From Candidatus Hydrogenedentota bacterium (GTDB taxonomy: Bacteria > Hydrogenedentota > Hydrogenedentia > Hydrogenedentales > JAGMZX01): a DNA stretch of 64,000 nucleotides. Of this stretch, positions 2,743-54,331 are shown one piece after another. Made by a program: the position numbers and the translations under genes. The stretch covers positions 80,977-144,976 of the forward strand of contig JAKQEQ010000138.1 of assembly GCA_029556545.1 (NCBI GenBank), given 5' to 3'. Positions within the stretch are counted from its first letter, which is position 1, and every line of letters starts with the position of its first letter. Below the pieces are notes generated by a model. It did not search any database, was not told where the DNA came from, and was given only the letters and a program-made list of their open reading frames with translations.

Positions 2743-2881
2743 CTACTTCTTTCTGATTTTCCCCGCGTTGTGAATCTGTCGGCAAGACGCAACACGGCGC
2801 GGTTTTCCAAGTCGATTCCGTGCTCGGCGAACTCGATGAGAGCCGGTGCTTGCTGGCATTCCTCTCATAGGGAAGGAAATG

Positions 2882-4969
2882 ATGCGGACACACACAGGTG
2901 AAGTATCAGCGGTCGTGCGCCGGGCCGCAGGGCTTGTTCTCGGATTGATCGCGGCGGCCTCGGCGTCGTTTGCGGCGGCGCAGACGACCTATACGCTCAC
3001 GGTGGAGGTCGTCGGTTCGGGCACGACCAGTCCGCCGGCGGGCGAGCACACGTACCCGGAGGGGCAGGCCGTCTTTCTCTCGGCATTTCCAAACACGGAT
3101 TGGGCGTTTGACCGTTGGGAGGGCGATCTGACCGGCACGGAGCCATCGAACCGGTACCTGCTGATGGACTCGGACAAGACGGTGACGGCGGTGTTCGCGG
3201 AAGGGGGATACTTGCTCACGATAGCCGTCGTGGGGGACGGCACAACGAACCCGTCGCCCGGCGCGCATCGGTATCTCGAAGGGCGCACCGTGCAGATAGG
3301 CACGTACGCCGGCGCGGGCTGGAAATTCGATCATTGGGAAGGCGACCTCTCCGGAACGGACATCGTCGGGGCCGTCGTGATGGACGGGGACAAGAGCGTG
3401 ACGGCGGTGTTTACGGAGAGCACGGAAGTCTTCACGCTGACCGTCGCGGTGGTCGGCAATGGAACCGTCGATCCGTCGGCGGGCGATCACACGTATACCC
3501 CGTACTCGTTTGTCTTCGTCTCGGCGACGCCGGACGAAGGATGGGCCTTTGATCACTGGGAGGGCGACCTCGGCGGCACGGAGCCGTTGAGCCAACCCGT
3601 GTACATGGATTCGGACAAGACGGTGACCGCCGTATTTATCGAGGGCGGGTACCCGCTCACGATCTTCGTGGTCGGCAATGGAACCACGAGTCCCCCGCCC
3701 GGCACGTACAACTACGTCGCGGGGCGAACGGTCGGCTTGACGGCGATACCGGATTTGGGGTGGACGTTTGATCGCTGGGAGGGCGACCTCAGCGATACGA
3801 GCCCGATCGCCTCGATCACCATGGACGGGCCCAAGACGGTCACGGCCGTCTTTCTCGAGACCGGCACATCGGTGCTGACGATGGCCGTCATGGGCGACGG
3901 AAGCACGATTCCCCCGGTGGGCGAGCATACCTACCCGCAGGGCCAATCGGTGCAGGTGCAGGCCCTGCCCGACACCGGATGGACCTTCGACCATTGGGAA
4001 GGCGACCTCAGCGGCGCGGAAAACCCGACGAATATCGTGTTGGACACCGACAAGGCGGTCACGGCCGTCTTCATCGTGCCTCGCACCTTGACCATCGCCG
4101 CCGTCGGAAACGGCGCGGTCGATCCCGACGTGGGCGTCCACACCTATGCGGACGCCGAAGAAGTCGTCATCACCGCCACGCCGGATACGGGCTGGCTGTT
4201 CGACCACTGGGAGGGCGACCTCGACGGCTCGGAAAACCCGGCCACGATCATCATGGACGCCGACAAGGCGGTCACCGCCGTCTTTGTCGAGCGCAACGTC
4301 TATCTTCTGTACACCTCCACGAGCGGTCAGGGGTCGATATTCCCGGAACCGGTGGCACATAGTTACTACGAGGGGGAGACAGTCGAAGTCAGCGCCACGC
4401 CCGCGGAGAACTGGCGCTTCGACCATTGGGAAGGCGACCTCTCGGGGTCGGAGAACCCCACGACGATTCTCATGGACGGGAACAAGACGGTGATCGCCGT
4501 ATTCGTTGAGATAGACCCCGGCGAGGGCGAAGGCGAAGGCGAGGGTGAAGGTGAGGGCGAGGGCGAGGGCGAGGGTGAAGGCGAGGGCGAGGGCGAAGGT
4601 GAAGGCGAGGGCGAGGGAGAGGGGGAAGGTGAAGGTGAGGGGGATCCATGCTTCAGCGAATATCACACGGCGGACCAGTCGCGGAACAATCTGGTCGAGC
4701 TAACGGAATTGCTGCGGGTCATCCAGTTCTACAACTCGGGCGGATTCCATTGCGCGGACGATCCGGGCAGCACGGAAGACGGTTACGTCCCCGGTCCGGG
4801 CGCGAACCAGTCGTGCTGTCCGCATAACAGTGACTATGCGCCGACAGGTCCGGACTGGCAGATCAAATTGACCGAGTTGCTCCGGGTCATCCAGTTCTAT
4901 AATTCCGGCGGCTACCACTACTGCCCAGACGAGGACACGGAGGACGGTTTCTGCCCCGGCGCCAGTTGA
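2882..4969 (+). CDS. Secreted InlB-repeat protein with GEG linker and shared C-terminal module
   Basis: GGAAGG at 2871-2876 sits at good spacing from the ATG at 2882; the ATG at 2879 is too close. A signal peptide (hydrophobic LVLGLIAAASASFAAAQ) leads into seven tandem units of about 70 residues. Each has the pattern LT..VVGxGT, P.G.H.Y..G, W.FD(H/R)WEGDL and (D/K)KTVTAVF, that is, divergent InlB B-repeat (beta-grasp) domains found in extracellular proteins. Then comes a Glu-Gly linker of about 40 residues, then the C-terminal module from 4664. In this copy the first Ca-loop-like motif is degraded (DQSRNNLVELTE in place of DQNGDGxIxLTE), while both LLRVIQFYNSGG segments and the Cys remain. 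It is likely a cell-surface or matrix protein. The adhesion role is inferred from the repeat family. Confidence 0.85.
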   Translation: MRTHTGEVSAVVRRAAGLVLGLIAAASASFAAAQTTYTLTVEVVGSGTTSPPAGEHTYPEGQAVFLSAFPNTDWAFDRWEGDLTGTEPSNRYLLMDSDKTVTAVFAEGGYLLTIAVVGDGTTNPSPGAHRYLEGRTVQIGTYAGAGWKFDHWEGDLSGTDIVGAVVMDGDKSVTAVFTESTEVFTLTVAVVGNGTVDPSAGDHTYTPYSFVFVSATPDEGWAFDHWEGDLGGTEPLSQPVYMDSDKTVTAVFIEGGYPLTIFVVGNGTTSPPPGTYNYVAGRTVGLTAIPDLGWTFDRWEGDLSDTSPIASITMDGPKTVTAVFLETGTSVLTMAVMGDGSTIPPVGEHTYPQGQSVQVQALPDTGWTFDHWEGDLSGAENPTNIVLDTDKAVTAVFIVPRTLTIAAVGNGAVDPDVGVHTYADAEEVVITATPDTGWLFDHWEGDLDGSENPATIIMDADKAVTAVFVERNVYLLYTSTSGQGSIFPEPVAHSYYEGETVEVSATPAENWRFDHWEGDLSGSENPTTILMDGNKTVIAVFVEIDPGEGEGEGEGEGEGEGEGEGEGEGEGEGEGEGEGEGEGEGEGDPCFSEYHTADQSRNNLVELTELLRVIQFYNSGGFHCADDPGSTEDGYVPGPGANQSCCPHNSDYAPTGPDWQIKLTELLRVIQFYNSGGYHYCPDEDTEDGFCPGAS
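4520..4641 (+). repeat. GAGGGC/GAAGGC hexanucleotide tract encoding a Gly-Glu linker
   Basis: Roughly twenty imperfect hexamers (GGCGAG, GGCGAA, GGTGAA, GGTGAG) encode an uninterrupted Gly-Glu stretch. Because the unit is six bases, slippage changes linker length without shifting the frame. Confidence 0.9.
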
Positions 4970-5287: not shown

Positions 5288-8200
5288 CTACTTTAGGCCC
5301 GGGCAATACCCGTCCTCGGTTCCTTCCCCCGGGCAAACGTGGTAACCGCCGGAATTATAGAACTGAATGACCCGGAGCAACTCGGTCAGTTTGATCTGCC
5401 AGTCTGGGCCGCTGGGCGCGTAGTCGCTCGCGTGAGGCGGGCAACTGTGATTCGCTCCAATTCCGGGAATGAACCCGTCTTCCGTACTGCCCGGGTCGTC
5501 CGCGCAATGGAACCCGCCGGAGTTGAAGAACTGAATCACGCGCAGGAGTTCGGTCAGTTCGATAATACCGTTCCCATTCTGGTCCGCCGTGTGATCCCCA
5601 GCCGCTTGGCCCTCACCTTCACCTTCACCTTCACCTTCACCCTCGCCCTCGCCCTCACCCTCGCCTTCAGCGCCGCAAGGCCCGACGTTGACCTGGCGGC
5701 TCGTCTGACTGCTGTTGCCGAGCGGGTCTGGCACTTGATAGGTCACGGTGTACCATCCTTGGGCGTTGGTGTTTACCGTGCCCAGACCGAGGACGACTAT
5801 ACTGTCGGTGACATCGCCGAAAACGTAGTCCTCCGCGGTGGCTCCGGCGTCCACGTAGGGTCCGCTGCCGCACGCGACGAAGGTCGGGTTGCTTCCGAGC
5901 AAGGTGATCTGCGGGCCGTCATGGTCGAGGACATAATTCGGACCGCCCGCATCCCCGTTGCGCAGGCCAACGCCGCCAAGCGGGCCGTCGGCGTTCTTGA
6001 TACTATCGTTGTCGATCAGTCTCAGTGCGATTTCTCCGCTGGTGTCACCGTTCGTCTGAATCTCGACATCCCATTCATCGCCGCCTTGGTTGGTCACATT
6101 GCTGATGACGGCCTGCGGCTCGCCCCAGAGCGTGACGATCTCGAAATCAGACGCGTCAACGCCCGTAACCACGTCGGAAAAGACCACGCTGTAGCCGATT
6201 ACGGCGAGCGTCGTCGGACTCACGGACCATTGATTGACAGCGACGACGGAGAGCGGCGAGTAGGCCGCGGCGAGAATGTCATAGTCATTTCCAATTTGGC
6301 CGCGCAGGTTATGCTTCGATTCCCATGCGACGATCCAGTTTCCGTAACCATTTGACGTGATCGCCGCTTGGGCATCGAGGTTATTGGGCCCGTCGTCGTT
6401 GTCGATGGTGCCGTAGCCGTTAACGAGTCCAGCCTTGCTCCACGTCGCCCCGTTGTCGAAGGACTGCGCAATGAGTATGTCGTAATCGCTCGGTCCTATC
6501 TGGTCTGCGAAGTCCGTCAGGGAGTGCCATGCAATGGTCCACTGTCCGTGACCGTTTGTGGCGATTGCGGGCCGGGATTCCGCCTTTTGTGTGGATCCGC
6601 CCGGCGTTATGTTCTCTTGATAGCGGCGCGTAAGGAAGCGGCTGTTGGACCAGCTCAGGCCGTTGTCAGTGGAGCAGGAGTACTTTATGTCCATGTTGAA
6701 CTCACTCCACTGGAAATTCCATGTAACTATCCAATTTCCGAAACTGTCCGCGGCAATCACGGGGTTGACATCCGGGATAACGTTGCCGGCGCCGTCCGGG
6801 TTTAGCAGGGCGGGCGCGGTCCACGTGGCCGTGTTGTCATCTGAGCGGACATATGCGATGTCGGCGTCCGAGGCGCCGCGGGTTTTGGACAAAGGCGCCG
6901 TGGTCGACCAAGCGATGATCCAGGCGCCGCGGCCGTCGGTAGCGACCTGGGGGGCGACATCGTCTGCGGAGTCCCCGTACCAGTAAGACCCGGTAACACG
7001 ATATTGCCAAGTCTCGGCGTTGTCAGACGAAGCAAAGACGATGTCTTTGTCCGTGCCAAGGCCGAACTGATCGTTTCGGGAGGACCACACGACGACCCAG
7101 CGGCCGCTGCCATAGGCGGCGTCCGGGCTTTCGTCCAATGCCGCATCTTCCGCATCGGGCAGGAACCTCAAGACAGCGGGAGGGGTCCAGGAAGGGGTTC
7201 CGGCCGTGTACGTGGAGTACAGGATATCCTTGTCGGTCCCGATTTGTCCCCCAAGGTTCTCTGTGGACTCCCACGCGCAAAGCCACTTGAGCTGTCCATC
7301 GGAAGCGAGGGTGGGGTTGGTATCCTCGCCGCTGTCGGTATAGGCTTGGTTGACGAAGAAAGGCGACCACGTTTCTCCCCCGCTCGACGAGATGGCGGAC
7401 ATGATATCCGTATCGCCGTCGTTGTTGTCGTCGCCGGACCAAACAAGCATGGTTCTTCCATTGCCACCGGCAGCCACGTCGGGGTCTTCCTCCTTGGTCG
7501 AGTCTGTTTTGGCGAAGGGGTTGACAGCTTGCGTATTGCTGAACGGGATGAAGGGGTGATAGATGTGCGAGAAAAAGAGGTCGTCATCGCTGCCGGCCCC
7601 GAGGTAGTCTGAGTCGGACGTCCACGCGGCAAGGATATGCCCGTGATTGTCGGAGGCGAGCGCGGGGGCTATATCGACGCCACTATCGCTGGCGGCGTTG
7701 GTGTTGATGGGAAAGACAGGGGACCAGGACTGCCCGTCGTCCGTCGAGACGGCCGCCAGGATATCCGCTTCTCCGCCGATGTTCTTGTTCAGCGGGTCGA
7801 AACCATACCACGCTGCCATGAACAGGCCTGTGCTCCGGTCTACGGTGAGGGTCAGGTCGCGATCCGCCCATGGGTCGCTGTATGCGTTCGAATTGAGGAC
7901 TTGCGGGTTGCTCCAGACGTGTCCGAAATCAGAGTGGGCACAAAGTATGTCCGAATCCGTGCCGATGGCCCCATCGAGGTTTTCCGTCGACAGCCACACC
8001 GCGACCCACTTTCCCTTGCTGTTGACCGCCAGCTTGATGTTCGTATCGTCGCCGGTGTCGGTGTTCTGGTTCTTGTTGACCTGATATGGGACCGAGAAGG
8101 TGGCGCCGTCGTCTGTAGAGATCGCGCAGAGTATGTCGTCGTCGGCGCCCTCGTGTACCCAGGCGATAACCACCTTGCCTTTTCCGTCAGTGGCCACAGC

Positions 8201-9187
8201 GGGACTTCGGTCGGCCACGCTGTCCGAGTTCATGGTGCTGGAGACCACATAGGGAGAGCCCCATGTTGCGCCTGCATCCAGGCTTCTAGCGTAGAAGATG
8301 TCGTAGTCCGTGCCGGCCGTGCTGTAGATATTGAAATTCGATTCCCATACCGCGAGGACGTCGCCATCGCCGGCCAGCCACGTCAGGCACGGCTTGCCGT
8401 CGTCGGAGGTTCCATCGAACGGGGCAGTCGGGACAGCGACGGGTGGCTGCCAGTTCAGGCCGCCGTCGAATGAACGCGACGTGAAAATATCTGGATCGGC
8501 GCCAAAATCGCCCCCATGGTCATAGGTGGAACTCCACGCCGCCATGATCACGCCGGCGGGGCTGACCGCCACCGCCGGTTCCTCTTCGGCGACGCTATCC
8601 ACGAAGTCGTAGGTGCTGATTACGACGGGGCTTTCGGTCCAGAATTCACCGCCGTCCGTGGAGCGCACGGAGACGAGCGCTTCGGAGGAAGTGCCAATAT
8701 TCTTGCGGTAGACGGCGACCCAGGTGTTGTTCATGGCGACGGCAAGCTGTACGTTGCCGTCATCGTCGGGATCGTCTTCGTAGTACAGTGCGCTGAGGCC
8801 CTGAGGTCCGGGGAAGAGGATCGCCGGCAGTACCGTGATTGTCCCGTAGTGGAAGACCGGGTCTGGATCACTGCCGTACCAATCCGTATAGGGGATGACC
8901 ATAGGTTCGAGGAATTGCTCGGTATGGTCCGGAATGACGGACATGATCGCGAAGTTGAAGATGTCGCCGTCGACGTCCGGTGGACGGCCGTTGGCGATAA
9001 CGTGGCTGCCACTACCGTAGACCCATTCGACACTGTCGCCTGTATAGATTGTGACATTTGGCGGATATAGCCCGTCCTCCTCACACACGACCTGCACGCT
9101 GGCTGCCTGGGCCGCAACTCCCACGAACAGCAGTCCGATTACTAAACACGAGGTTTGCTTGAGATTACGAAAAGACTCTTTCTCCAT
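5288..9187 (-). CDS. Secreted BNR/sialidase-type propeller protein with cupredoxin-like N-domain and shared C-terminal module
   Basis: GGGAGG lies five bases ahead of the ATG at 9187, so the upstream in-frame ATG at 9214 is not used. A signal peptide (LVIGLLFVGVAAQAA) is followed by a cupredoxin-like domain (GDSVEWVYGSGSHVI ... PVFHYGTITV) that lacks the copper Cys. Most of the protein, from about residue 110 to 1000, is a long series of BNR/Asp-box-like units (S.DGG.TW, W..AW.S, DSDIL) expected to fold as one or more beta-propellers. A calcium-type domain (DASDFEIV ... RLIDNDSIKN) and a DUF5011-like Ig domain (GPQITLLGSNP ... YVDAGATAEDYVFGDVTDS) follow; both recur in the 12200 gene. A GEG linker and the intact C-terminal module (DQNGNGIIELTELL) end it. 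No sialidase active-site Arg triad can be assigned, so binding or structure is as likely as catalysis. Confidence 0.85.
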   Translation of the reverse strand: MEKESFRNLKQTSCLVIGLLFVGVAAQAASVQVVCEEDGLYPPNVTIYTGDSVEWVYGSGSHVIANGRPPDVDGDIFNFAIMSVIPDHTEQFLEPMVIPYTDWYGSDPDPVFHYGTITVLPAILFPGPQGLSALYYEDDPDDDGNVQLAVAMNNTWVAVYRKNIGTSSEALVSVRSTDGGEFWTESPVVISTYDFVDSVAEEEPAVAVSPAGVIMAAWSSTYDHGGDFGADPDIFTSRSFDGGLNWQPPVAVPTAPFDGTSDDGKPCLTWLAGDGDVLAVWESNFNIYSTAGTDYDIFYARSLDAGATWGSPYVVSSTMNSDSVADRSPAVATDGKGKVVIAWVHEGADDDILCAISTDDGATFSVPYQVNKNQNTDTGDDTNIKLAVNSKGKWVAVWLSTENLDGAIGTDSDILCAHSDFGHVWSNPQVLNSNAYSDPWADRDLTLTVDRSTGLFMAAWYGFDPLNKNIGGEADILAAVSTDDGQSWSPVFPINTNAASDSGVDIAPALASDNHGHILAAWTSDSDYLGAGSDDDLFFSHIYHPFIPFSNTQAVNPFAKTDSTKEEDPDVAAGGNGRTMLVWSGDDNNDGDTDIMSAISSSGGETWSPFFVNQAYTDSGEDTNPTLASDGQLKWLCAWESTENLGGQIGTDKDILYSTYTAGTPSWTPPAVLRFLPDAEDAALDESPDAAYGSGRWVVVWSSRNDQFGLGTDKDIVFASSDNAETWQYRVTGSYWYGDSADDVAPQVATDGRGAWIIAWSTTAPLSKTRGASDADIAYVRSDDNTATWTAPALLNPDGAGNVIPDVNPVIAADSFGNWIVTWNFQWSEFNMDIKYSCSTDNGLSWSNSRFLTRRYQENITPGGSTQKAESRPAIATNGHGQWTIAWHSLTDFADQIGPSDYDILIAQSFDNGATWSKAGLVNGYGTIDNDDGPNNLDAQAAITSNGYGNWIVAWESKHNLRGQIGNDYDILAAAYSPLSVVAVNQWSVSPTTLAVIGYSVVFSDVVTGVDASDFEIVTLWGEPQAVISNVTNQGGDEWDVEIQTNGDTSGEIALRLIDNDSIKNADGPLGGVGLRNGDAGGPNYVLDHDGPQITLLGSNPTFVACGSGPYVDAGATAEDYVFGDVTDSIVVLGLGTVNTNAQGWYTVTYQVPDPLGNSSQTSRQVNVGPCGAEGEGEGEGEGEGEGEGEGEGQAAGDHTADQNGNGIIELTELLRVIQFFNSGGFHCADDPGSTEDGFIPGIGANHSCPPHASDYAPSGPDWQIKLTELLRVIQFYNSGGYHVCPGEGTEDGYCPGLK
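5611..5669 (-). repeat. GEG-linker hexanucleotide tract
   Basis: This is a Glu-Gly-coding GAGGGC/GAAGGT hexamer tract on the minus strand. It separates the DUF5011-like domain from the C-terminal module of the propeller protein. Confidence 0.85.
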
Positions 9188-9427
9188 GACCGCCTCCCTT
9201 CTGGCATTGAACACCCTACGGACAAGATTGCGAAGGACGTTGAGACTTGTTCTTCTGGCCCGCTGCTCTTACGGGCGGGCCGATGTCGTTTCCCCCTTCC
9301 CGCCCTCATCACGCGTTCTCCAGAGGCATACTCCGGCGGGAATCACAGCGATTCTCTCTGGTCATCTGCCTGCGGCTGTCGAGAAGTACACGGGTGACAA
9401 CCCAAGAAAGGAGCCCCCGTTTTCTTC

Positions 9428-10122: not shown

Positions 10123-10217
10123 GCGGAAGTCCCGCACATGCGAGCGGCGCCGGTTGTGTCTGTGGGGTGGGGTTGAAGTGCATAAAACGACTTCTTCCTG
10201 ACAGAAGGACCCATGGT

Positions 10218-12146
10218 ATGAGTAGTCGCAAGGCGTTGATTGCGGTGATGGTCACTCTATGTGGGAACGGATGGGCGTTTGGACCGGTGACGCACGCTTA
10301 CCTGGCCACGCGGGCGGCTTCCAGCTTGAATGAAGAGATTGTCTGGGGCGCTATCGCGCCCGATTTTGCCGGGTTGGTAAGCGTGGATAATCCCTTGGAG
10401 GGATCCCGGCTGAGCAGCATGACCCACCACGAATATGCCCGCCTCGCCGACTCCTGTTTTGCCATTGGGTTCTCGACTCATAACAGCGACTGGGGGGCGG
10501 ACTATTATGCCCACCTCTTTTATGACACGGGCGCGGAGGACATTTACTCGACCATCATCATCCGCCAATTGAGTCAGGAATTCGGGATCAGCATGCAGCA
10601 AGGCGAAGATCTCTTTGAGGCCGCCATTGACTATCTCATCCGCAGGGATCAAGGTTCTGAAATCGGCATGCTGGTCAGGCGCGCGGCGACGGCGTCTGGA
10701 GCGGTCCAGGAACAGGCCGTGGTCGACGCCTTCGCCGCGGAATTGGCTGCGCGGGTGTCCGGTCTGACGGTTGAGGAAGCGGACGAGGACATTCGAAAGG
10801 CGTTCGAGGCCTATCGCAGCACGATGGAGGTTTACGGGGAGCAGCTTAGCGGCGACTTGGACGCCGTTCGCTCCATGCTCATGCCGTTGCTCGCTGTGCA
10901 CTTGGGGGTCGACTTGGCGACCGCAGAGACCTATTTCGACCGGGCCGTCGAACTCTGTGCGGACTACCAGACCGAAATGGACCGCATCATTGCTGCAATA
11001 GCGCCGCATCTGCCCGAGCATGACTGTGTGGCTTCTGAAGGCGAAGGCGAGGGCGAAGGAGAGGTGGATTTCTGCGTGGCCTTTGCCCAGGTGTCGATGA
11101 ACGCCCTGCTGGGTCAGGTAGGCGACGAATACGGCGCGTTGCTCGCGTTGCTTGACCCCGCAATCGCCGATATCAACGGTCCCTTCCACGTGGACCTTGC
11201 GGACGATCAGAACTACGTTATCGACGTGACGGGCAACGGCCTGCTTGACGCCGGCAGTGAGTTGGGGTTGCTATCCGCGATCCTGAGTGATGCCGAATTC
11301 GATAACGGCGTCCTCACGCATTCCCAGGCGCGCGCCGCGTGGGATCACAACTGGAATCAACTTCTCAACGGGAACATCGGCCCGGTGTTGGCGCCGGTGC
11401 TGCCACCGCTCGTGCCGGGACTCATGGAACTCCTTGTGGGGTATGTCACCCTCGGCGACGGGGGCGTCACAGCCACGGGTCCGTCTAGCGTAACGGGGAG
11501 CGGTTCGTTTGGATTTGTTGCGGGGCTGCTGTCGCTTCTGGAGGATGCGCTCCAAGGCTACTTCGGCAGTGGATTCGCGAACCCCGTGCTCGATAAGGCG
11601 GATTTCACGCTTCTTGAGGAACTGGCGGCCTCGGGCGACGCCGACGGCGACGGCTACACCAATGCGCAGGAGTACGCCTATTTCACGCCGGTCGTCTGCT
11701 TCCGGAAAAAGCAGAACGACCCGTCCATCGACTATGTGACGGCGGCGCTGCATCCGCGCATCTGCCCGGACTGCGAGGGATGCCCGGAGTGCAGGCCGTC
11801 CACGAGGCACCTGTTCCGCGTCGGCGAAGACGCCTGTCTGGCCGTGCCCGGCGATGTGTCCCCGGACGAGATATTCATTTGGTCAAGAGAGGGCGCGGGA
11901 AGGCTCATCGAGGGCCGCTATGTCGGCGCACGTTGCAAGACCCTCCTTATCCCGAATTTGCAGATCGAGGACACCGGAACCTATACCTGCCAATATCCGG
12001 GCGAAAAGGGGACTTATTCTGTGCAGATCACGGTTGCGGAAGCCGTACCTGCGGCGGATGTCGGGGGACTTATGCTGATCTCGCTGGCGCTGCCGTTCGC
12101 GGCGTGTGTTGTGTCGAGGCTTCGGAAGCGAGCCGCCAGGCTTTGA
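10218..12146 (+). CDS. Secreted zinc-dependent phospholipase C-like protein with Ig domain and C-terminal membrane anchor
   Basis: AGAAGGA precedes the ATG at 10218 by about nine bases; the upstream in-frame start lacks this. After a signal peptide ending at GWAFG, the residues GPVTHAYLA, GAIAPDF, MTHHE and HNSDWGADYYAHLF match the scattered His/Asp ligands of the zinc-dependent phospholipase C / S1-P1 fold. Residues 110-270 are helical. A short GEG linker near residue 280 leads to a helical region with a DADGDGYTNAQEY calcium loop. A Cys-rich patch (CPDCEGCPEC) follows, and then an Ig-like domain ending in DTGTYTCQYP. The C-terminus is a single hydrophobic helix followed by RLRKRAARL, which resembles a sorting or anchoring tail. 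It lacks the module carried by its neighbours. The substrate is uncertain. Confidence 0.7.
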   Translation: MSSRKALIAVMVTLCGNGWAFGPVTHAYLATRAASSLNEEIVWGAIAPDFAGLVSVDNPLEGSRLSSMTHHEYARLADSCFAIGFSTHNSDWGADYYAHLFYDTGAEDIYSTIIIRQLSQEFGISMQQGEDLFEAAIDYLIRRDQGSEIGMLVRRAATASGAVQEQAVVDAFAAELAARVSGLTVEEADEDIRKAFEAYRSTMEVYGEQLSGDLDAVRSMLMPLLAVHLGVDLATAETYFDRAVELCADYQTEMDRIIAAIAPHLPEHDCVASEGEGEGEGEVDFCVAFAQVSMNALLGQVGDEYGALLALLDPAIADINGPFHVDLADDQNYVIDVTGNGLLDAGSELGLLSAILSDAEFDNGVLTHSQARAAWDHNWNQLLNGNIGPVLAPVLPPLVPGLMELLVGYVTLGDGGVTATGPSSVTGSGSFGFVAGLLSLLEDALQGYFGSGFANPVLDKADFTLLEELAASGDADGDGYTNAQEYAYFTPVVCFRKKQNDPSIDYVTAALHPRICPDCEGCPECRPSTRHLFRVGEDACLAVPGDVSPDEIFIWSREGAGRLIEGRYVGARCKTLLIPNLQIEDTGTYTCQYPGEKGTYSVQITVAEAVPAADVGGLMLISLALPFAACVVSRLRKRAARL

Positions 12147-12199: not shown

Positions 12200-13480
12200 A
12201 TGAATGGTGTGAGCGCGTTTTGGTCTCGCGGGGCCGGTATGTGGTGCATCGTGGCCTTGACTGGTTTATGCCACGCGGGCGGTACGGTCGCGGCGCCGGC
12301 GCCCGACCGCGATAGCGTGCCTCATCGTGCGCTGATCCCGCCGGAGGTCGTGTCGATCTTGCGGAACGGGCCGAGCCCGACGGCGGCGCCGGAAGTCGCG
12401 TTTGGAGTCTTGTTCAGTGAGGCGGTGACGGGCGTGGATATTGAGGACTTTGAATTGGAGGCGCATAATCTGGTCGGCGAGGCGATTTTGAGCGTGACCG
12501 GGAGCGGCGCGGGCTACACCGTTCTCGTCGCTTCGGGCGAAGGCGCCGGCGTCATCGAGGTGCACCTGCGGGACAACGACACGATTCGCGATGTCGATAA
12601 CAACGCGTTGGGCGGCCCGGGCTTGGGCAATGGCGACCATGAGTGCGATGAGATGTACATTGTGGACCGGCGCGGGCCGGAGATTGCACTTGCGGGGGAT
12701 AATCCCCTGGTTATCGAGTGCGGGGACGTATTCATCCGTCCGAACGCTACTGCGTTCGATACCACCTACGGGGACGTTTCCGGCGATATAGCAGTAACCG
12801 GCGACGCGGATGCGGACGCCGTGGGCGACTACGAAGTCACCTACACGGTGAGCGACCCGCTGGGCAATACGACCGAACTGGTCTTGGCGGTTCACGTGCG
12901 CGACACGAGCCTTCCCGAAATCGCGTTGTCAGGGGCGAATCCCCTGGCTTGGCCCTGCAGTGTTCCGTATGTGGACCCGGGAGCGGCAGTCACGGACGTT
13001 TGTGACGCCGCGCCCGTCCTGGTTATTGACGACACGGATGTCGACCCGTCGCACGCAGGGAGCTTCACGGTTGTTCTTACGGCGACGGATGCTTCGGGGA
13101 ATGTGAACCAGGCGGTCCGGGTGGTGAACGTGGCGGCCCCATGCGGCGAGGGCGAAGGCGAGCCGCCCGAAGAGCACACGGCGGACCAAGACGGCGATGG
13201 ATTGATAGAACTGAGCGAGTTGCTGCGAGTGATCCAGTTCTACAACTCGGGCGGGTTCCACTGCGCGGATGATCCGGGCAGTACGGAAGACGGTTACGTG
13301 CCCGGCCCCGGCGCGAACGAGACATGCTCTCCGCATAACAGCGACTACGCGCCGCCGGGTCCGGATTGGCAGATCGCATTGACCGAGTTGCTGCGAATCA
13401 TCCAATTCTACAACTCGGGCGGTTACCACTACTGCCCCGGCGAAGGCACGGAGGACGGCTTCTGCCCCGGCGCCGCGTGA
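12200..13480 (+). CDS. Secreted Ig-like/DUF5011-like protein with shared C-terminal module
   Basis: GGGAGG at 12186-12191 selects the ATG at 12200; the frame is open far upstream, but that part overlaps the previous gene. A signal peptide (MWCIVALTGLCHAGGTVAA) is followed by a domain with FGVLFSEAVTGVDIEDFEL and LRDNDTIRDVDNNALGG, paralogous to the one near the C-terminus of the 5288-9187 protein. Two DUF5011-like Ig domains (GPEIALAGDNP, LPEIALSGANP) follow. A very short GEGEGE linker precedes the best-preserved copy of the C-terminal module (DQDGDGLIELSELLRVIQFYN). It is 53 bases behind the phospholipase-like gene and could be co-transcribed with it. A structural or anchoring role is likely. 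No enzyme domain is seen. Confidence 0.8.
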   Translation: MNGVSAFWSRGAGMWCIVALTGLCHAGGTVAAPAPDRDSVPHRALIPPEVVSILRNGPSPTAAPEVAFGVLFSEAVTGVDIEDFELEAHNLVGEAILSVTGSGAGYTVLVASGEGAGVIEVHLRDNDTIRDVDNNALGGPGLGNGDHECDEMYIVDRRGPEIALAGDNPLVIECGDVFIRPNATAFDTTYGDVSGDIAVTGDADADAVGDYEVTYTVSDPLGNTTELVLAVHVRDTSLPEIALSGANPLAWPCSVPYVDPGAAVTDVCDAAPVLVIDDTDVDPSHAGSFTVVLTATDASGNVNQAVRVVNVAAPCGEGEGEPPEEHTADQDGDGLIELSELLRVIQFYNSGGFHCADDPGSTEDGYVPGPGANETCSPHNSDYAPPGPDWQIALTELLRIIQFYNSGGYHYCPGEGTEDGFCPGAA

Positions 13481-24255: not shown

Positions 24256-27200
24256 CTACCGCAACAGCCCGGGGCAGAAGCCGTCCTCGGTCCCTTCTTC
24301 GGGGCAATAGTGGTACCCGCCGCTATTGAAGAACTGAATGAGCCGCAGCAGCTCAGTTAGCGCGATGGTCCAACTTTGCCTTCCACCTGCGTAATCCGCG
24401 TCGTGCGGTGCACACGAGTGGTTAGCGCCGGGGCCCGCGACATACCCATCTTCCGTATCAAGCGGGTTATCGGCACAATGAAACCCACCGGAATTATAGA
24501 ACTGGATCAGCCGCAGCAACTCGGTCAATTCGATGCGTCCATCGCCATTCTGATCGGCAGAGTGCCCTATTAGCGCCTGCCCCTCGCCTTCACCTTCGCC
24601 CTCACCTTCGCCTTCACCTTCGCCCTCGCCTTCGCCCTCACCCTCACCCTCACCCTCACCTTCGCCCTCGCCCTCGCCCTCGCCTTCGCCTTCACCTTCG
24701 CCTTCGCCCTCACCTTCACCCTCGCCCTCGCCCTCGCCCTCGCCCTCACCTTCGCCCTCACTACCGCCATCCGTTACCTGAATTTCGATAAGCAAGTCAT
24801 CTGTTCCGACCTCGTTGGTCGCGCGAACGGTGGCCGTGTGCGCCCCAACGTGATCTTGGCCCGGCGTCCACGCCACAACGCCCGTTATCTCATTCACCGT
24901 CAGCCCAATCGGGCCCTCGACGACGGAGAACGTAGGGGTCGGCAATCCACCCGCGTCGACGTCATAGAAGCCCGTAACCCCAACCGTAAGCATGAAAACC
25001 TCCCCGACCGGGTTGTGGTAAATCCACGGCGCCACGTCAAGGCTGAATGTCAGCGAGGCGCTGAAAGCGGATAGATTGCCGCTGGCGTCATACGCGCGGA
25101 TGGCGTACTTGTGCCCGTATTGATTCGCGGGAGGCGGGTCGAACGTCAGGACTGTCTCGGCGATATTGCCTCTATTGAAACGCCAATGCCCCGGAAAGTG
25201 ATTGACCTTCACATACTTCCAAAGTTCATATCCCACGACGCCGACGTTGTCCGTTGGTGCATCCCAAGCCAGGGTCACCGACGTCGTGGTCACGTCCACG
25301 ACGGCCGCGTTGGACGGCGCGCCGGGCGCCTCCGTGTCCACCACGGACACCATGAATTCCTGCGTGTCCTCGCCGGCGCTGCTGTACGCGCGAACGGTCA
25401 CGGAGTGCGCGCCCAGTTGGATCGCGCCGGAAGTCCACGAAATCAGGCCCGTGCCGCCGTCTATCGTCATGCCCTCCGGATATACAAGCAGTTCATAGGC
25501 CGGGGCGGGCGTTCCCGTCGCGTTCACATCGTAGACGTACGGGCTTCCAACGTTCACCAGCGGCGCCCCAGGATCGGACACGATGCGCGGCGTTGCGTTA
25601 TCGATTATCAGCGGCACGATATCGGACCAAACCTCGTTCCCCTGAAAGTCCGTCAACCGGGCGCGCAAGTCGTGCGCGCCGTCCGTGGAGAGTGTCGTGT
25701 CCCACACGTAACTGAACGGGGCGATCTCGGACTTTCCGATGTTGACGCCGTCGAGATAATACTTGATCTGCTCCACATTGTCGGGGTCGAGCACCTGCAC
25801 CGCTATCGTCACATTGTTGTAAACCGTGTCACCGTCCGACGGCGAAACGATCGCGAATGGAGACGGCTCGTAACCGGAGATAGTGACCATTTGGGCGGGG
25901 CTGCGATGCGTCGCGCCTTCATCGTCGCGCACAATCAGTGTTACCTGATAATCGCCGTTCGCCAGGTACGTATGCGAAGGATGCTGTTCATCCGAGTAGC
26001 GGTGGTCGCCAAAGGCCCAATGCCATTCAACGACGCTTCCGTCGCTGTCGCTGCTCAGGTCCGTGAAAGAGACCTCGTTCACGTTGACCGCGAACGAGAA
26101 ATCGGCCACGGGCGGCTCATTGCCGCCGGTGTCCACCCACGGGCCGTGCTCGTAGGCGCCCATATCCGGCGGCGGCAAACCAATCCCGACATTAGGTACC
26201 TCGAGATCGTCATAAAATCGCGCGTTGTCGTCGAGATCAGTGGAAATGAACCCCGGAAAGGCGGTGTGGTTCCCCGCGTCGATGCACGGGGAGCCTGCGC
26301 CGAGACGAAAGTCGTTATTTCCCGCATCAACCCAAATCGGATCGCGGTCTATTACCGTGGGCAGGGCCGCCGGATTGGGCGGGTTTTCGCCGGGAACCCG
26401 CGCGAAGATGCCCTCGACGCAACTGTGCGCAATCGTGTACGGTCCCGCAAGCTGGCCATCGATCACGGGCGCCCCTTCTTCCGTGGCAACGTTACCATAG
26501 ACGATTGACGTACTGACATCGCACGTGGACGGTCCCGCCGAAAGAATCCCCGCGTTGCTGCGCGATTTGTTCTTGGTCAGGGTGCAGCCGGCCATTGAAA
26601 TATCGCCATAGAAATTGTATATCGCGCCGCCGTAGCCGCCGAAATCGTAGAACCCCGCGCTCTGGCGGTACGCTTCGTTGTTCACAAACAGACAGTTCAC
26701 AAGCGTCAACTCGCCCGCGTTCCAGATCGCCCCGCCGATATGTGCCCGGTTACCTCGAAACACCGAGTTGGTGATTGTCGCGCTGATCCCAAGGTTCAGG
26801 ACCGCGCCGCCGCCCGCCACCATGTTACCGTAGGCAAACCGCCACCGGGCGACGTTGTTCTCGAAGAGGCAGCGATCGATCTCCAGGATCACGTTGCCGC
26901 TGCTCCATATGGCGCCCGCATCCCCCGGCCCCCCGCCCACCTGTGCCTCGTTAAGACGGAAAATACACCCGTTCACGGTAAGCGTGTAAACGTTGTCGCC
27001 CTCATAATTGCTTTGCGCGTACACCGCGCCGCCGCGCCCGTCCACGGCCCAGTTGCCCTCGAAAACGCAGTCCTCGATCAGCGCATTGCTCCGGTAAGCG
27101 ACCAGGGCCGCGCCGGAGTGTGCGATATTCCTCGTGAACCGGCAATTGCGAATCGTAGGGTCCGCACCCTCCAGATACATCCCCGCGCCGCCCGAATTAT

Positions 27201-27696
27201 AGCCCGAAGCCCACCATGCCCAGCCGCCGCTGACCGTGAAACCATCCAGAATCGCGGTCTCATCCACCCCATTGCCCGCGACGACGTGATAGCTGTTGTC
27301 CGGCTGCATATTGACCCAGCCCGGCAGGTCATCGCCGTTCAGGTCGCCACTCAGCACCGTAATATGAGCCGCCGGGTCGCGTTGCTCACGCAACGTCTCC
27401 ACGCCCGTGAAACCGCCGTAAATCGCGACCCCGTCGACAAGTTCAAAGGACACCGTACGATCACCGCCGGCCGGAGCCGGAGTATAGACCCCTTCCGCTA
27501 CCCAGATTTCCGGCGCCCCGCTCGACAGGGCATCGTGCACGCTCACATACGCATCGTGCCACGAGCTTCCGTCATTCGCCCCCGCGGCGTCCGCGTCCAC
27601 AAAAACCACCGCCCTCGCCGTCGCCGAACAGGCCACTACGACGACGACCAGAAATGGCAGCACTACACTACTCGAGAATACGCGATTGAAACCCAT
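24256..27696 (-). CDS. Large secreted beta-helix/PKD/FN3 protein with GEG linker and shared C-terminal module
   Basis: A signal peptide (LPFLVVVVVACSATARA) opens the 1146-residue product. Residues 30-430 form a right-handed parallel beta-helix of the polymorphic outer-membrane type (DGSSWHDAYVSVHDALSSG, GGFTGVETLREQRD, repeated GGAV/GGAIW and NCxF turns). Next are a PKD domain (FGDHRYSDEQHPSHTY), a Big-type domain (VQVLDPDNVEQIKYYLDG), a putative-Ig domain (GTGLISWTSGAIQLGAHSVT), an FN3 domain (TTTSVTLAWDAPTDNVGVVG) and a second putative-Ig domain. A Gly-Glu linker of about 60 residues leads to the C-terminal module (DQNGDGRIELTELLRLIQFYN). Its first part is paralogous to the gene at 62354. 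It is likely a surface adhesin or polysaccharide-binding protein. Catalytic lyase residues cannot be assigned. Confidence 0.85.
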   Translation of the reverse strand: MGFNRVFSSSVVLPFLVVVVVACSATARAVVFVDADAAGANDGSSWHDAYVSVHDALSSGAPEIWVAEGVYTPAPAGGDRTVSFELVDGVAIYGGFTGVETLREQRDPAAHITVLSGDLNGDDLPGWVNMQPDNSYHVVAGNGVDETAILDGFTVSGGWAWWASGYNSGGAGMYLEGADPTIRNCRFTRNIAHSGAALVAYRSNALIEDCVFEGNWAVDGRGGAVYAQSNYEGDNVYTLTVNGCIFRLNEAQVGGGPGDAGAIWSSGNVILEIDRCLFENNVARWRFAYGNMVAGGGAVLNLGISATITNSVFRGNRAHIGGAIWNAGELTLVNCLFVNNEAYRQSAGFYDFGGYGGAIYNFYGDISMAGCTLTKNKSRSNAGILSAGPSTCDVSTSIVYGNVATEEGAPVIDGQLAGPYTIAHSCVEGIFARVPGENPPNPAALPTVIDRDPIWVDAGNNDFRLGAGSPCIDAGNHTAFPGFISTDLDDNARFYDDLEVPNVGIGLPPPDMGAYEHGPWVDTGGNEPPVADFSFAVNVNEVSFTDLSSDSDGSVVEWHWAFGDHRYSDEQHPSHTYLANGDYQVTLIVRDDEGATHRSPAQMVTISGYEPSPFAIVSPSDGDTVYNNVTIAVQVLDPDNVEQIKYYLDGVNIGKSEIAPFSYVWDTTLSTDGAHDLRARLTDFQGNEVWSDIVPLIIDNATPRIVSDPGAPLVNVGSPYVYDVNATGTPAPAYELLVYPEGMTIDGGTGLISWTSGAIQLGAHSVTVRAYSSAGEDTQEFMVSVVDTEAPGAPSNAAVVDVTTTSVTLAWDAPTDNVGVVGYELWKYVKVNHFPGHWRFNRGNIAETVLTFDPPPANQYGHKYAIRAYDASGNLSAFSASLTFSLDVAPWIYHNPVGEVFMLTVGVTGFYDVDAGGLPTPTFSVVEGPIGLTVNEITGVVAWTPGQDHVGAHTATVRATNEVGTDDLLIEIQVTDGGSEGEGEGEGEGEGEGEGEGEGEGEGEGEGEGEGEGEGEGEGEGEGEGEGEGEGEGEGEGEGQALIGHSADQNGDGRIELTELLRLIQFYNSGGFHCADNPLDTEDGYVAGPGANHSCAPHDADYAGGRQSWTIALTELLRLIQFFNSGGYHYCPEEGTEDGFCPGLLR
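24581..24760 (-). repeat. Longest GEG-linker hexanucleotide tract
   Basis: About 180 bases of GAGGGC/GAAGGC/GAGGGT hexamers on the minus strand encode some thirty Glu-Gly dipeptides with no interruption. Confidence 0.9.
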
Positions 27697-52804: not shown

Positions 52805-54331
52805 TCAGGCGCCCCCAGGGCAGAAACCGTCCTCCGTGCCCGCCTCCAGGCAGTAGTGATAGCCGCCGGAATTGTAGAACTGGATGATCCGCAACAGCTC
52901 GGTCAAACCGATCCGCCAGTCTGGGCCGTCCGGCGCGTAGTCGCTGCTGTGGGGCGGGCATGACCGATTCACGCCGGGGCCGGGCGCATAACCGTCTTCC
53001 GTGTCCTCCGGGTTTTCCGCGCATTGATAACCGCCGGAGTTGTAGAACTGAATGACCCGCAGCAGTTCCGCCACCTCGATCAGCCCGTCCCCATTTTGGT
53101 CGGCTGAGTAAATTGTAGGCTGTCCTTCGCCTTCACCCTCGCCTTCGCCTTCGCCCTCACCGTGGGGCCCGGTGCAATGTTGAATATCGCCCTCCAGTGT
53201 TACGTCGGGCATCTGAAACAGGGCGGGTATCTGCTCGGAGCATGCCGCCTCCGATAGATAAGTGTCCTCGACCACGAGCCTGAAAGGCCGGGGCGATTCG
53301 GTCAAGAGGCTGACCAGCGGGGCGAAGTCCTGTCCACCGGCCTCGTACTGGCTGTCGTCGCCGCCCAGAAACGACAGTCCGCTGAGGTTGTCCAACGTCG
53401 CCACGAAGGACAAATCCACCGCGGGCGGCCTGTGAAACGTGATCTGTTCGAGGTTCGCCAAATCGCCCAAGGCGGAATAATCGCTGAGCAGGCAGTAGTT
53501 CTCGTCGCTACACAGGCGACCCAGCGTAAGTGCGCGAACTCCGGGAAATGCGGCCACAAGAGCGGCCGGTATCCAATCGCTGAAGTCACCGGCAAGACCT
53601 ACCTGAAGACTCTCGACTTGCGGGACGGCGGGCAGGCTCTCGGTGTCCAGGGTCGATCTGACCCACTCGATCATCAGGTCCCGCAACCCCGTCATACTCG
53701 CCAGCGGCACGATCTGGTCCGGTGCGTCCCAGAGGAGGTGCGGCAGCTTGAGCACTTGTACCTGGGTCATTGTTGCGATATCCGCGATTTGTTCGACCGT
53801 GGCCGCGGAACTGATGAGCGTGTTCAAGGAAGACAATGCGCTGAGCGGCGCGACATCCGCCGCGCTCACAAACAGCATCAGGTACTCGAGGTTTGTCAGG
53901 GCCGCCAGCGGTGAGACATCCACCGCGGTTCCAAGGACGGCATAGGAGCGCAGGCTGCATCCTCCCGCCGCCACAGCGCCCGTCACCGTCAATGATCGCA
54001 GACTGGTGACGACGGATATCTCACCCAAACGCGCGACAATCTGCTCATCCGTCAAGCCCGGTGCTTTGAAGCAGCACGTCAGCGTCTCGAGGCTGGTGCA
54101 GTACTCGATGCCCGTGAGCGGCAATGCGCCCGACGGAACCGAAGTAAAGGCCACCTCGAGCTCCAGGATCGTGGCCATCTCCGTGTCCGTGATGTCCCCG
54201 ACCGGCTTGTCGAGCGCCACTCGGACCGCCACCTCCAAAGCAGGCTCTTCGAATGTCACCACGACGCCGAGCGCCCTCGGTGAGACCAGCAGCAGCGCAA
54301 CCCCGATAAGAACCCCGTGTATCTTGCGCAT
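52805..54331 (-). CDS. Secreted leucine-rich-repeat protein with GEG linker and shared C-terminal module
   Basis: GGAGG nine bases before ATG 54331; a signal peptide (VLIGVALLLVSPRALG) follows. Residues 25-350 hold irregular leucine-rich repeats (TNLEYLMLFVSAADVAPLSA, LSSLNTLISSAATVEQIADI, ANLEQITFHRPPAVDLSFVA), like bacterial internalin-type solenoids but with Cys-containing inserts. A short Gly-Glu linker precedes the C-terminal module (DQNGDGLIEVAELLRVIQFY). LRR solenoids usually bind proteins. It is a further member of the module-bearing surface family in this window. Confidence 0.82.
   Translation of the reverse strand: MRKIHGVLIGVALLLVSPRALGVVVTFEEPALEVAVRVALDKPVGDITDTEMATILELEVAFTSVPSGALPLTGIEYCTSLETLTCCFKAPGLTDEQIVARLGEISVVTSLRSLTVTGAVAAGGCSLRSYAVLGTAVDVSPLAALTNLEYLMLFVSAADVAPLSALSSLNTLISSAATVEQIADIATMTQVQVLKLPHLLWDAPDQIVPLASMTGLRDLMIEWVRSTLDTESLPAVPQVESLQVGLAGDFSDWIPAALVAAFPGVRALTLGRLCSDENYCLLSDYSALGDLANLEQITFHRPPAVDLSFVATLDNLSGLSFLGGDDSQYEAGGQDFAPLVSLLTESPRPFRLVVEDTYLSEAACSEQIPALFQMPDVTLEGDIQHCTGPHGEGEGEGEGEGEGQPTIYSADQNGDGLIEVAELLRVIQFYNSGGYQCAENPEDTEDGYAPGPGVNRSCPPHSSDYAPDGPDWRIGLTELLRIIQFYNSGGYHYCLEAGTEDGFCPGGA

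Follow-up and report, generated by a model that had tools for sequence, protein, structure and literature searches.

About 100 exported proteins in the genome of a Candidatus Hydrogenedentota bacterium carry one and the same module of some 99 residues, mostly at the C terminus. The explanation that we prefer, with a confidence barely above even, is that the module is a secreted anchor of a divergent, dockerin-like kind, dependent on calcium and braced by disulfides, which cohesins of the cell envelope would bind. The first-pass annotation of this DNA had proposed a shared tag that defines a surface-protein system, and this has held up: the tag occurs in about 100 copies per genome, behind dissimilar upstream domains, across the phylum and with cohesin genes alongside. 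In a phylum without cultured members, the result offers a probable role for a domain shared by about 100 proteins per genome that had no other explanation, and a single profile predicts much of the Hydrogenedentota surface proteome.

The stretch of DNA analyzed, referred to here as the window, is 64,000 nucleotides long and belongs to a genome of 6.1 Mb in 195 contigs (G000, the source genome). Five stretches of the window had been said to encode C-terminal modules behind differing upstream domains, and in-frame translation and domain matches bear this out. Each yields the same module, with its last residue 1 to 3 before the stop codon. The copy at 13175-13477 (plus strand; half 1 at about 13175-13312, half 2 at about 13334-13471) is the C-terminal end of a protein with Ig-like domains that starts near 12200. 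The copy at 4664-4966 (plus strand) ends an InlB-repeat protein (open reading frame [ORF] 2846-4969), and three copies on the minus strand end a BNR-propeller/Ig protein (5291-5593; ORF 5288-9214), a beta-helix/PKD/Ig/FN3 protein (24259-24564; ORF 24256-27696), and a leucine-rich-repeat protein (52808-53110; ORF 52805-54331). The modules are 75 to 85% identical to the 13175 copy and share more than 50 invariant columns, which excludes a chance resemblance. Where does the gene of the 13175 copy begin? Its start probably lies near 12200 rather than at the ATG at 11780, since the former is the first start with a signal peptide and the latter lies inside the preceding gene. The likely true extent is therefore 12200-13480 (plus strand), with the signal peptide at the 12200 ATG, followed by two Ig-like domains, a short GEGEGE linker, and the module. 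An adjoining secreted protein (10167-12146, plus strand) also has a short GEGEGE stretch and ends in a hydrophobic segment and a basic tail (GGLMLISLALPFAACVVSRLRKRAARL), so membrane-tail anchors are also in use in this module-bearing genome.

An acidic (GE)n run, absent from the first-pass annotation, precedes the module in all five window copies. It spans about 40 residues at 4520-4642 (plus strand), ahead of the 4664 module, and is long in the beta-helix protein. Across the source genome, at least (GE)3 is found within 60 residues ahead of the module in 68 of 93 C-terminal copies, and some runs reach 150 residues. The linker type varies by family, being (GE)n in family f1, of the GGIEGGVEG type in f2, and of the EGTxEG type in f6, while the module stays constant. 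Confinement to a few recent paralogues, named at the outset as a finding that would refute the surface-system idea, is contradicted by the persistence of the module across families while the linkers change. Contig ends in the source genome truncate a further 23 module frames (for example, C100:1-485, C155:1-498, and C34:1-486), and many of these break inside the (GE)n coding repeat, which probably breaks up the assembly and conceals further copies. Matches to TrAA12 in 25 tagged proteins were set aside as a low-complexity artifact; where checked, they lie at or near (GE)n linkers.

A profile built from the five window copies, a search that the first-pass annotation had recommended, gave 111 matches at an E value of ≤1e-3 in the source genome (best E, 6.5e-64) and positives in 41 of 68 Hydrogenedentota genomes, all 68 from one order. 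In the source genome, 104 distinct stop-terminated reading frames contain at least one module match, and 93 of them have the module end at most 15 residues from the stop codon. By a simple heuristic rather than a trained signal-peptide predictor, 64 of 71 complete, C-terminally tagged proteins have a hydrophobic N-terminal stretch. The tagged proteins include leucine-rich-repeat, Ig, PKD, propeller, and P-domain proteins as well as peptidases (M14 and C25). Eight further copies sit at the N terminus, directly after a signal-peptide-like segment, in proteins such as a C25 peptidase, a DUF3160 protein, and FG-GAP proteins, and a few are internal. An insert separates the module halves in three copies. 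Related proteins on contigs C170, C131, and C159 (L193, L205, and L217) have such an insert, which in two of them includes SPQRHKEHRGITEDTEQRG, a sequence that resembles a translated dispersed DNA repeat.

Could the module be a C-terminal secretion or sorting signal, comparable to type IX C-terminal domains (CTDs) or to sortase and exosortase signals? Its usual position beside the stop codon would suit this, and, as in the PEP-CTERM/exosortase, LPXTG/sortase, and type IX CTD systems, one C-terminal element is shared by about a hundred exported proteins per genome that are otherwise dissimilar. There are also six secretin matches in the source genome, so that a type II secretion system (T2SS)-like export route is possible. 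Unlike those signals, however, the module is a folded calcium-loop domain with neither a transmembrane segment nor a basic tail, and it also occurs N-terminally or internally. Placement at either protein end argues for a domain rather than a cleaved terminal signal. A cognate enzyme was likewise not detected in the source genome: no sortase was found, although positive controls worked, and neither this genome nor G040 had an exosortase at an E value of ≤0.001. SprA of the type IX secretion system (T9SS) gave no match above the cut-off in the 68 genomes, with a control panel that held no T9SS genome. We regard a sorting signal as improbable. Of the three functions first offered for the module, namely, secretion, sorting, and cohesin-like docking, it is docking that is favored, while the N-terminal copies disfavor a cleaved signal.

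The module is a full duplication of a unit of about 44 residues (half 1 versus half 2, E of 3e-32 with hhalign), each consisting of a calcium loop, a helix with the motif ELLRxIQF(Y/F)NSGG, and a hairpin with TEDG. Two halves sharing the ELLR motif had been recognized from the outset, and the duplication stands; it is not limited to the helix, since the repeat unit extends beyond it to include TEDG(Y/F)xPG. Loop 1, first described as dockerin-like, is a 12-residue EF loop of canonical form in 203 of 220 copies (87 of 93 in the source genome and 116 of 127 others). The second loop had been called decayed, which overstates its condition: it is lengthened to 13 to 15 residues (13 in relatives, often 15 in the source genome) and retains the initial Asp and the final Glu in 215 of the 220 copies. 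Among 224 distinct copies, the positions that are invariant or nearly so include the Asp that starts and the Glu that ends each loop, the TED motif of each half, and the Arg and Gln in each ELLRxIQF helix. We infer that the module binds calcium. Cys85 and Cys95 (alignment numbering) are jointly lost in 41 of the 42 cases, as are Cys30 and Cys51 in 3 of 4, though the p-values for such co-loss are inflated by the shared ancestry of the copies. In an exported domain, this paired loss points to two putative disulfides, 30-51 and 85-95. AlphaFold2, run with 97 sequences, models the module (pLDDT, 91.9; pTM, 0.82) as a loop, a helix, and two short strands, followed by the same elements in the same order. 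The helices are predicted directly after both loops, and the entering helix is absent. The paired EF-hand that the first reading had raised is thus only roughly right, each half being a loop, a helix, and a beta hairpin.

Might such a fold simply be a calcium-binding cap, or a self-association domain, that stabilizes or interlinks large surface proteins? Homotypic contacts would be possible, given the 2-fold repeat and the invariant Arg and Gln in the helix of each half. A structural cap would be unusual, however, as a lone terminal copy borne by a long flexible linker, and the cohesin fusions and cohesin cluster described below would be left unexplained. We give this idea very little credence.

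Is the module, then, a dockerin? It does share with dockerins an F-hand motif that is present twice, together with two calcium loops. As in type I dockerins (PF00404), two EF-type loops with F-helices lie in duplicated halves, and the whole is usually C-terminal on secreted proteins, with a flexible linker ahead. Unlike type I dockerins, which have about 60 to 70 residues, it has about 99, with an extra TEDG beta hairpin in each half, two probable disulfides, and a lengthened loop 2. No family in Pfam or NCBIfam covers it, the EF-hand matches there all being sub-threshold. The best PF00404 match, in one of the five copies, has an E value of 0.13 and 12.9 bits against a cut-off of 22.9, and the EF-hand models PF00036 and PF13499 reach no more than 18.5 bits (cut-offs, 25 to 30); by prediction, the module is not a helix-loop-helix pair. 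Library matches to FolE and S4 were due to chance. A PDB sequence search with the module returned calmodulin-type loops alone, and the profile gave nothing useful. Foldseek with the module model had a dockerin as its top match, at a nonsignificant E value of 2.9, and the seven PDB entries among the VIA-align matches listed are all dockerins, with weak Z scores of 2.9 to 3.6; most were solved together with their cohesin. A profile alignment with dockerins of the phylum covers only a 17-residue loop-helix. At most, the module is dockerin-like in its working, and we do not class it as a dockerin.

A search for a partner had also been advised, and cohesins did emerge. The cohesin family PF00963 is over its cut-off in 58 of the 68 Hydrogenedentota genomes versus 1 of 14 control genomes. 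The source genome has five Pfam cohesin matches and seven cohesin-bearing stretches with a group profile. Three consecutive genes on contig C33 encode CohA, CohB, and CohC. CohA comprises a signal peptide, a cohesin, and the module, while CohB and CohC each comprise a signal peptide, a cohesin, and a C-terminal membrane tail with basic residues. CohA and CohC score 30.4 and 37.8 bits against the PF00963 cut-off of 24.1; CohB alone has no Pfam match and is recognized by the group profile (E, 1e-22). A profile of the cluster cohesins picks out cellulosomal cohesins among PDB entries (best E, 7e-9), and its matches include partners of the dockerins that VIA-align listed for the module (2vn5, 5nrm, and 5nrk). 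Adjoining the cluster are a protein of 1,261 residues that has about 28 EF-type loops and carries the module at its end (L253:4933-8715, minus strand) and a small protein that combines a signal peptide and a classical dockerin (L253:8820-9359, minus strand). The latter is possibly a dedicated cohesin ligand; dockerin matches lie near cohesin genes also in G040 (C133) and G002 (C87).

The three-gene cluster is conserved across the phylum, and its CohA slot is where the exchange of anchors can be followed. CohA ends in the module in 10 genomes (G000, G040, G001, G002, G028, G029, G030, G031, G034, and G039). A classical dockerin takes the place of the module in G064, and a membrane tail does so in G004, G005, G035, and G036. 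In G041 the cohesin trio lacks the module, which an adjoining gene carries. The reverse order, with the module at the N terminus and the cohesin after it, is found in a second protein of the source genome (contig C116) and in one protein of G003. The alternation of three anchors (module, dockerin, or membrane tail) at a single orthologous position is a natural experiment on bacterial surface-anchor exchange. Cohesin and module share one chain in all 10 genomes with at least 19 modules versus 1 of 6 low-copy genomes examined. Cohesins are present in all 11 genomes with at least 10 modules, at a mean of 4.7 versus 1.8 (raw genome counts, with kinship ignored).

By analogy with dockerin-cohesin pairs, binding of the module to the CohA, CohB, and CohC cohesins is the best reading. 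A different receptor, such as an outer-membrane protein, an S-layer protein, or a surface glycan, is a possibility that we doubt but take seriously; the cohesins would then merely share an anchoring habit with the tagged proteins. The interchange of module and membrane tail in the CohA slot fits any anchor, and for this reason we write "anchor" and not specifically "cohesin ligand." Four low-copy genomes (G010, G014, G017, and G018, with one to five modules each) have no cohesin detectable with PF00963 or the group profile. Moreover, the source genome retains seven classical dockerins, one adjoining the cohesin cluster, which could be the true cohesin ligands. Against a different receptor, dockerins are the only coherent structural matches, weak though these are, and the number of cohesins climbs with the expansion of the module.

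How widely is the module distributed? At least 73 copies are present in each of G000, G040, G001, and G002, and there are 42 in G039, 37 in G003, 19 to 24 in family f6, and 18 in G041; most other genomes have 0 to 6. Almost every genome of family f11 lacks it. Seven genomes (G048, G049, G061, G062, G063, G064, and G066) lack the module and have 10 to 63 classical type I dockerins each, which are apparently the alternative tag in f11. Seven of the 68 genomes have at least 10 classical dockerins and 11 have at least 10 modules, with none shared, an overlap about one genome below expectation with kinship ignored and therefore suggestive only. Strong exosortase matches are common in f11 and f8 and absent from the module-rich f1 (G000 and G040), f6, and G039, while G002, G003, and G041 have both module and exosortase. 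A further proposal is that the module, as a new kind of folded anchor usable at either protein end, and its receptor form a Hydrogenedentota surface-attachment system unrelated to cohesin and dockerin, which replaced exosortase- or dockerin-type anchoring in some families; we think this rather unlikely. A contig scan with IQF[YF]NSGG, a narrow pattern that says little about the range outside the phylum, found loci from Hydrogenedentota and one further bin among the best 80 of 206 relatives. Plasmids and viral contigs were searched for the module without a match.

How might a dockerin-like anchor operate? After export, the module would fold with calcium and its two disulfides, and the flexible acidic linker would allow the upstream domain to extend. 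The module could then dock onto the cohesins of the envelope proteins CohB and CohC, which their membrane tails would hold in place, and CohA, with a cohesin and a module of its own, may be an adaptor that strings further tagged proteins together. With about 100 tags to seven cohesin-bearing stretches, the anchors would need to be abundant. The membrane tails suggest inner-membrane anchoring, which does not by itself account for display at the outer surface. As in cellulosomal and noncellulosomal dockerin-cohesin (PF00963) systems, cohesin proteins, some of them anchored, are encoded in the same genome, and some are adaptor-like, carrying both domains. Unlike in those systems, there are about 100 copies of the module, on mostly noncatalytic proteins, and the anchors have single cohesins.

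Precedents make a docking mechanism plausible. To judge from the available portions of two reports, the "Planctosome" of freshwater Planctomycetes (PMC6461901) and complexes of Cloacimonadota (PMC8542988) are noncellulosomal systems of cohesins and dockerins for which a role has been proposed in keeping peptidases and proteins with proprotein-convertase P-domains on the cell surface of uncultured bacteria. P-domains likewise occur among the module-tagged proteins, as do peptidases (M14 and C25). In those same portions, the systems use ordinary dockerins on few proteins, and neither the module nor Hydrogenedentota is described. Hydrogenedentes and dockerin do appear together in metagenome surveys, going by the excerpts available, and our literature search found no work linking Hydrogenedentota with cohesin. 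If the cohesin pairing is true, it would mean (i) a large noncellulosomal docking system on single-cohesin envelope anchors and (ii) a tag that has diverged beyond recognition by current family models.

One more cohesin of the phylum stands apart from the cluster. This lone cohesin, CohD (L273:9628-10755, plus strand), has a long low-complexity region and a C-terminal membrane tail. Its neighborhood holds sugar metabolism and transport genes, with no secretion genes recognized, and this metabolic setting is unrelated to it. Homologues of about 390 residues are widespread in the phylum.
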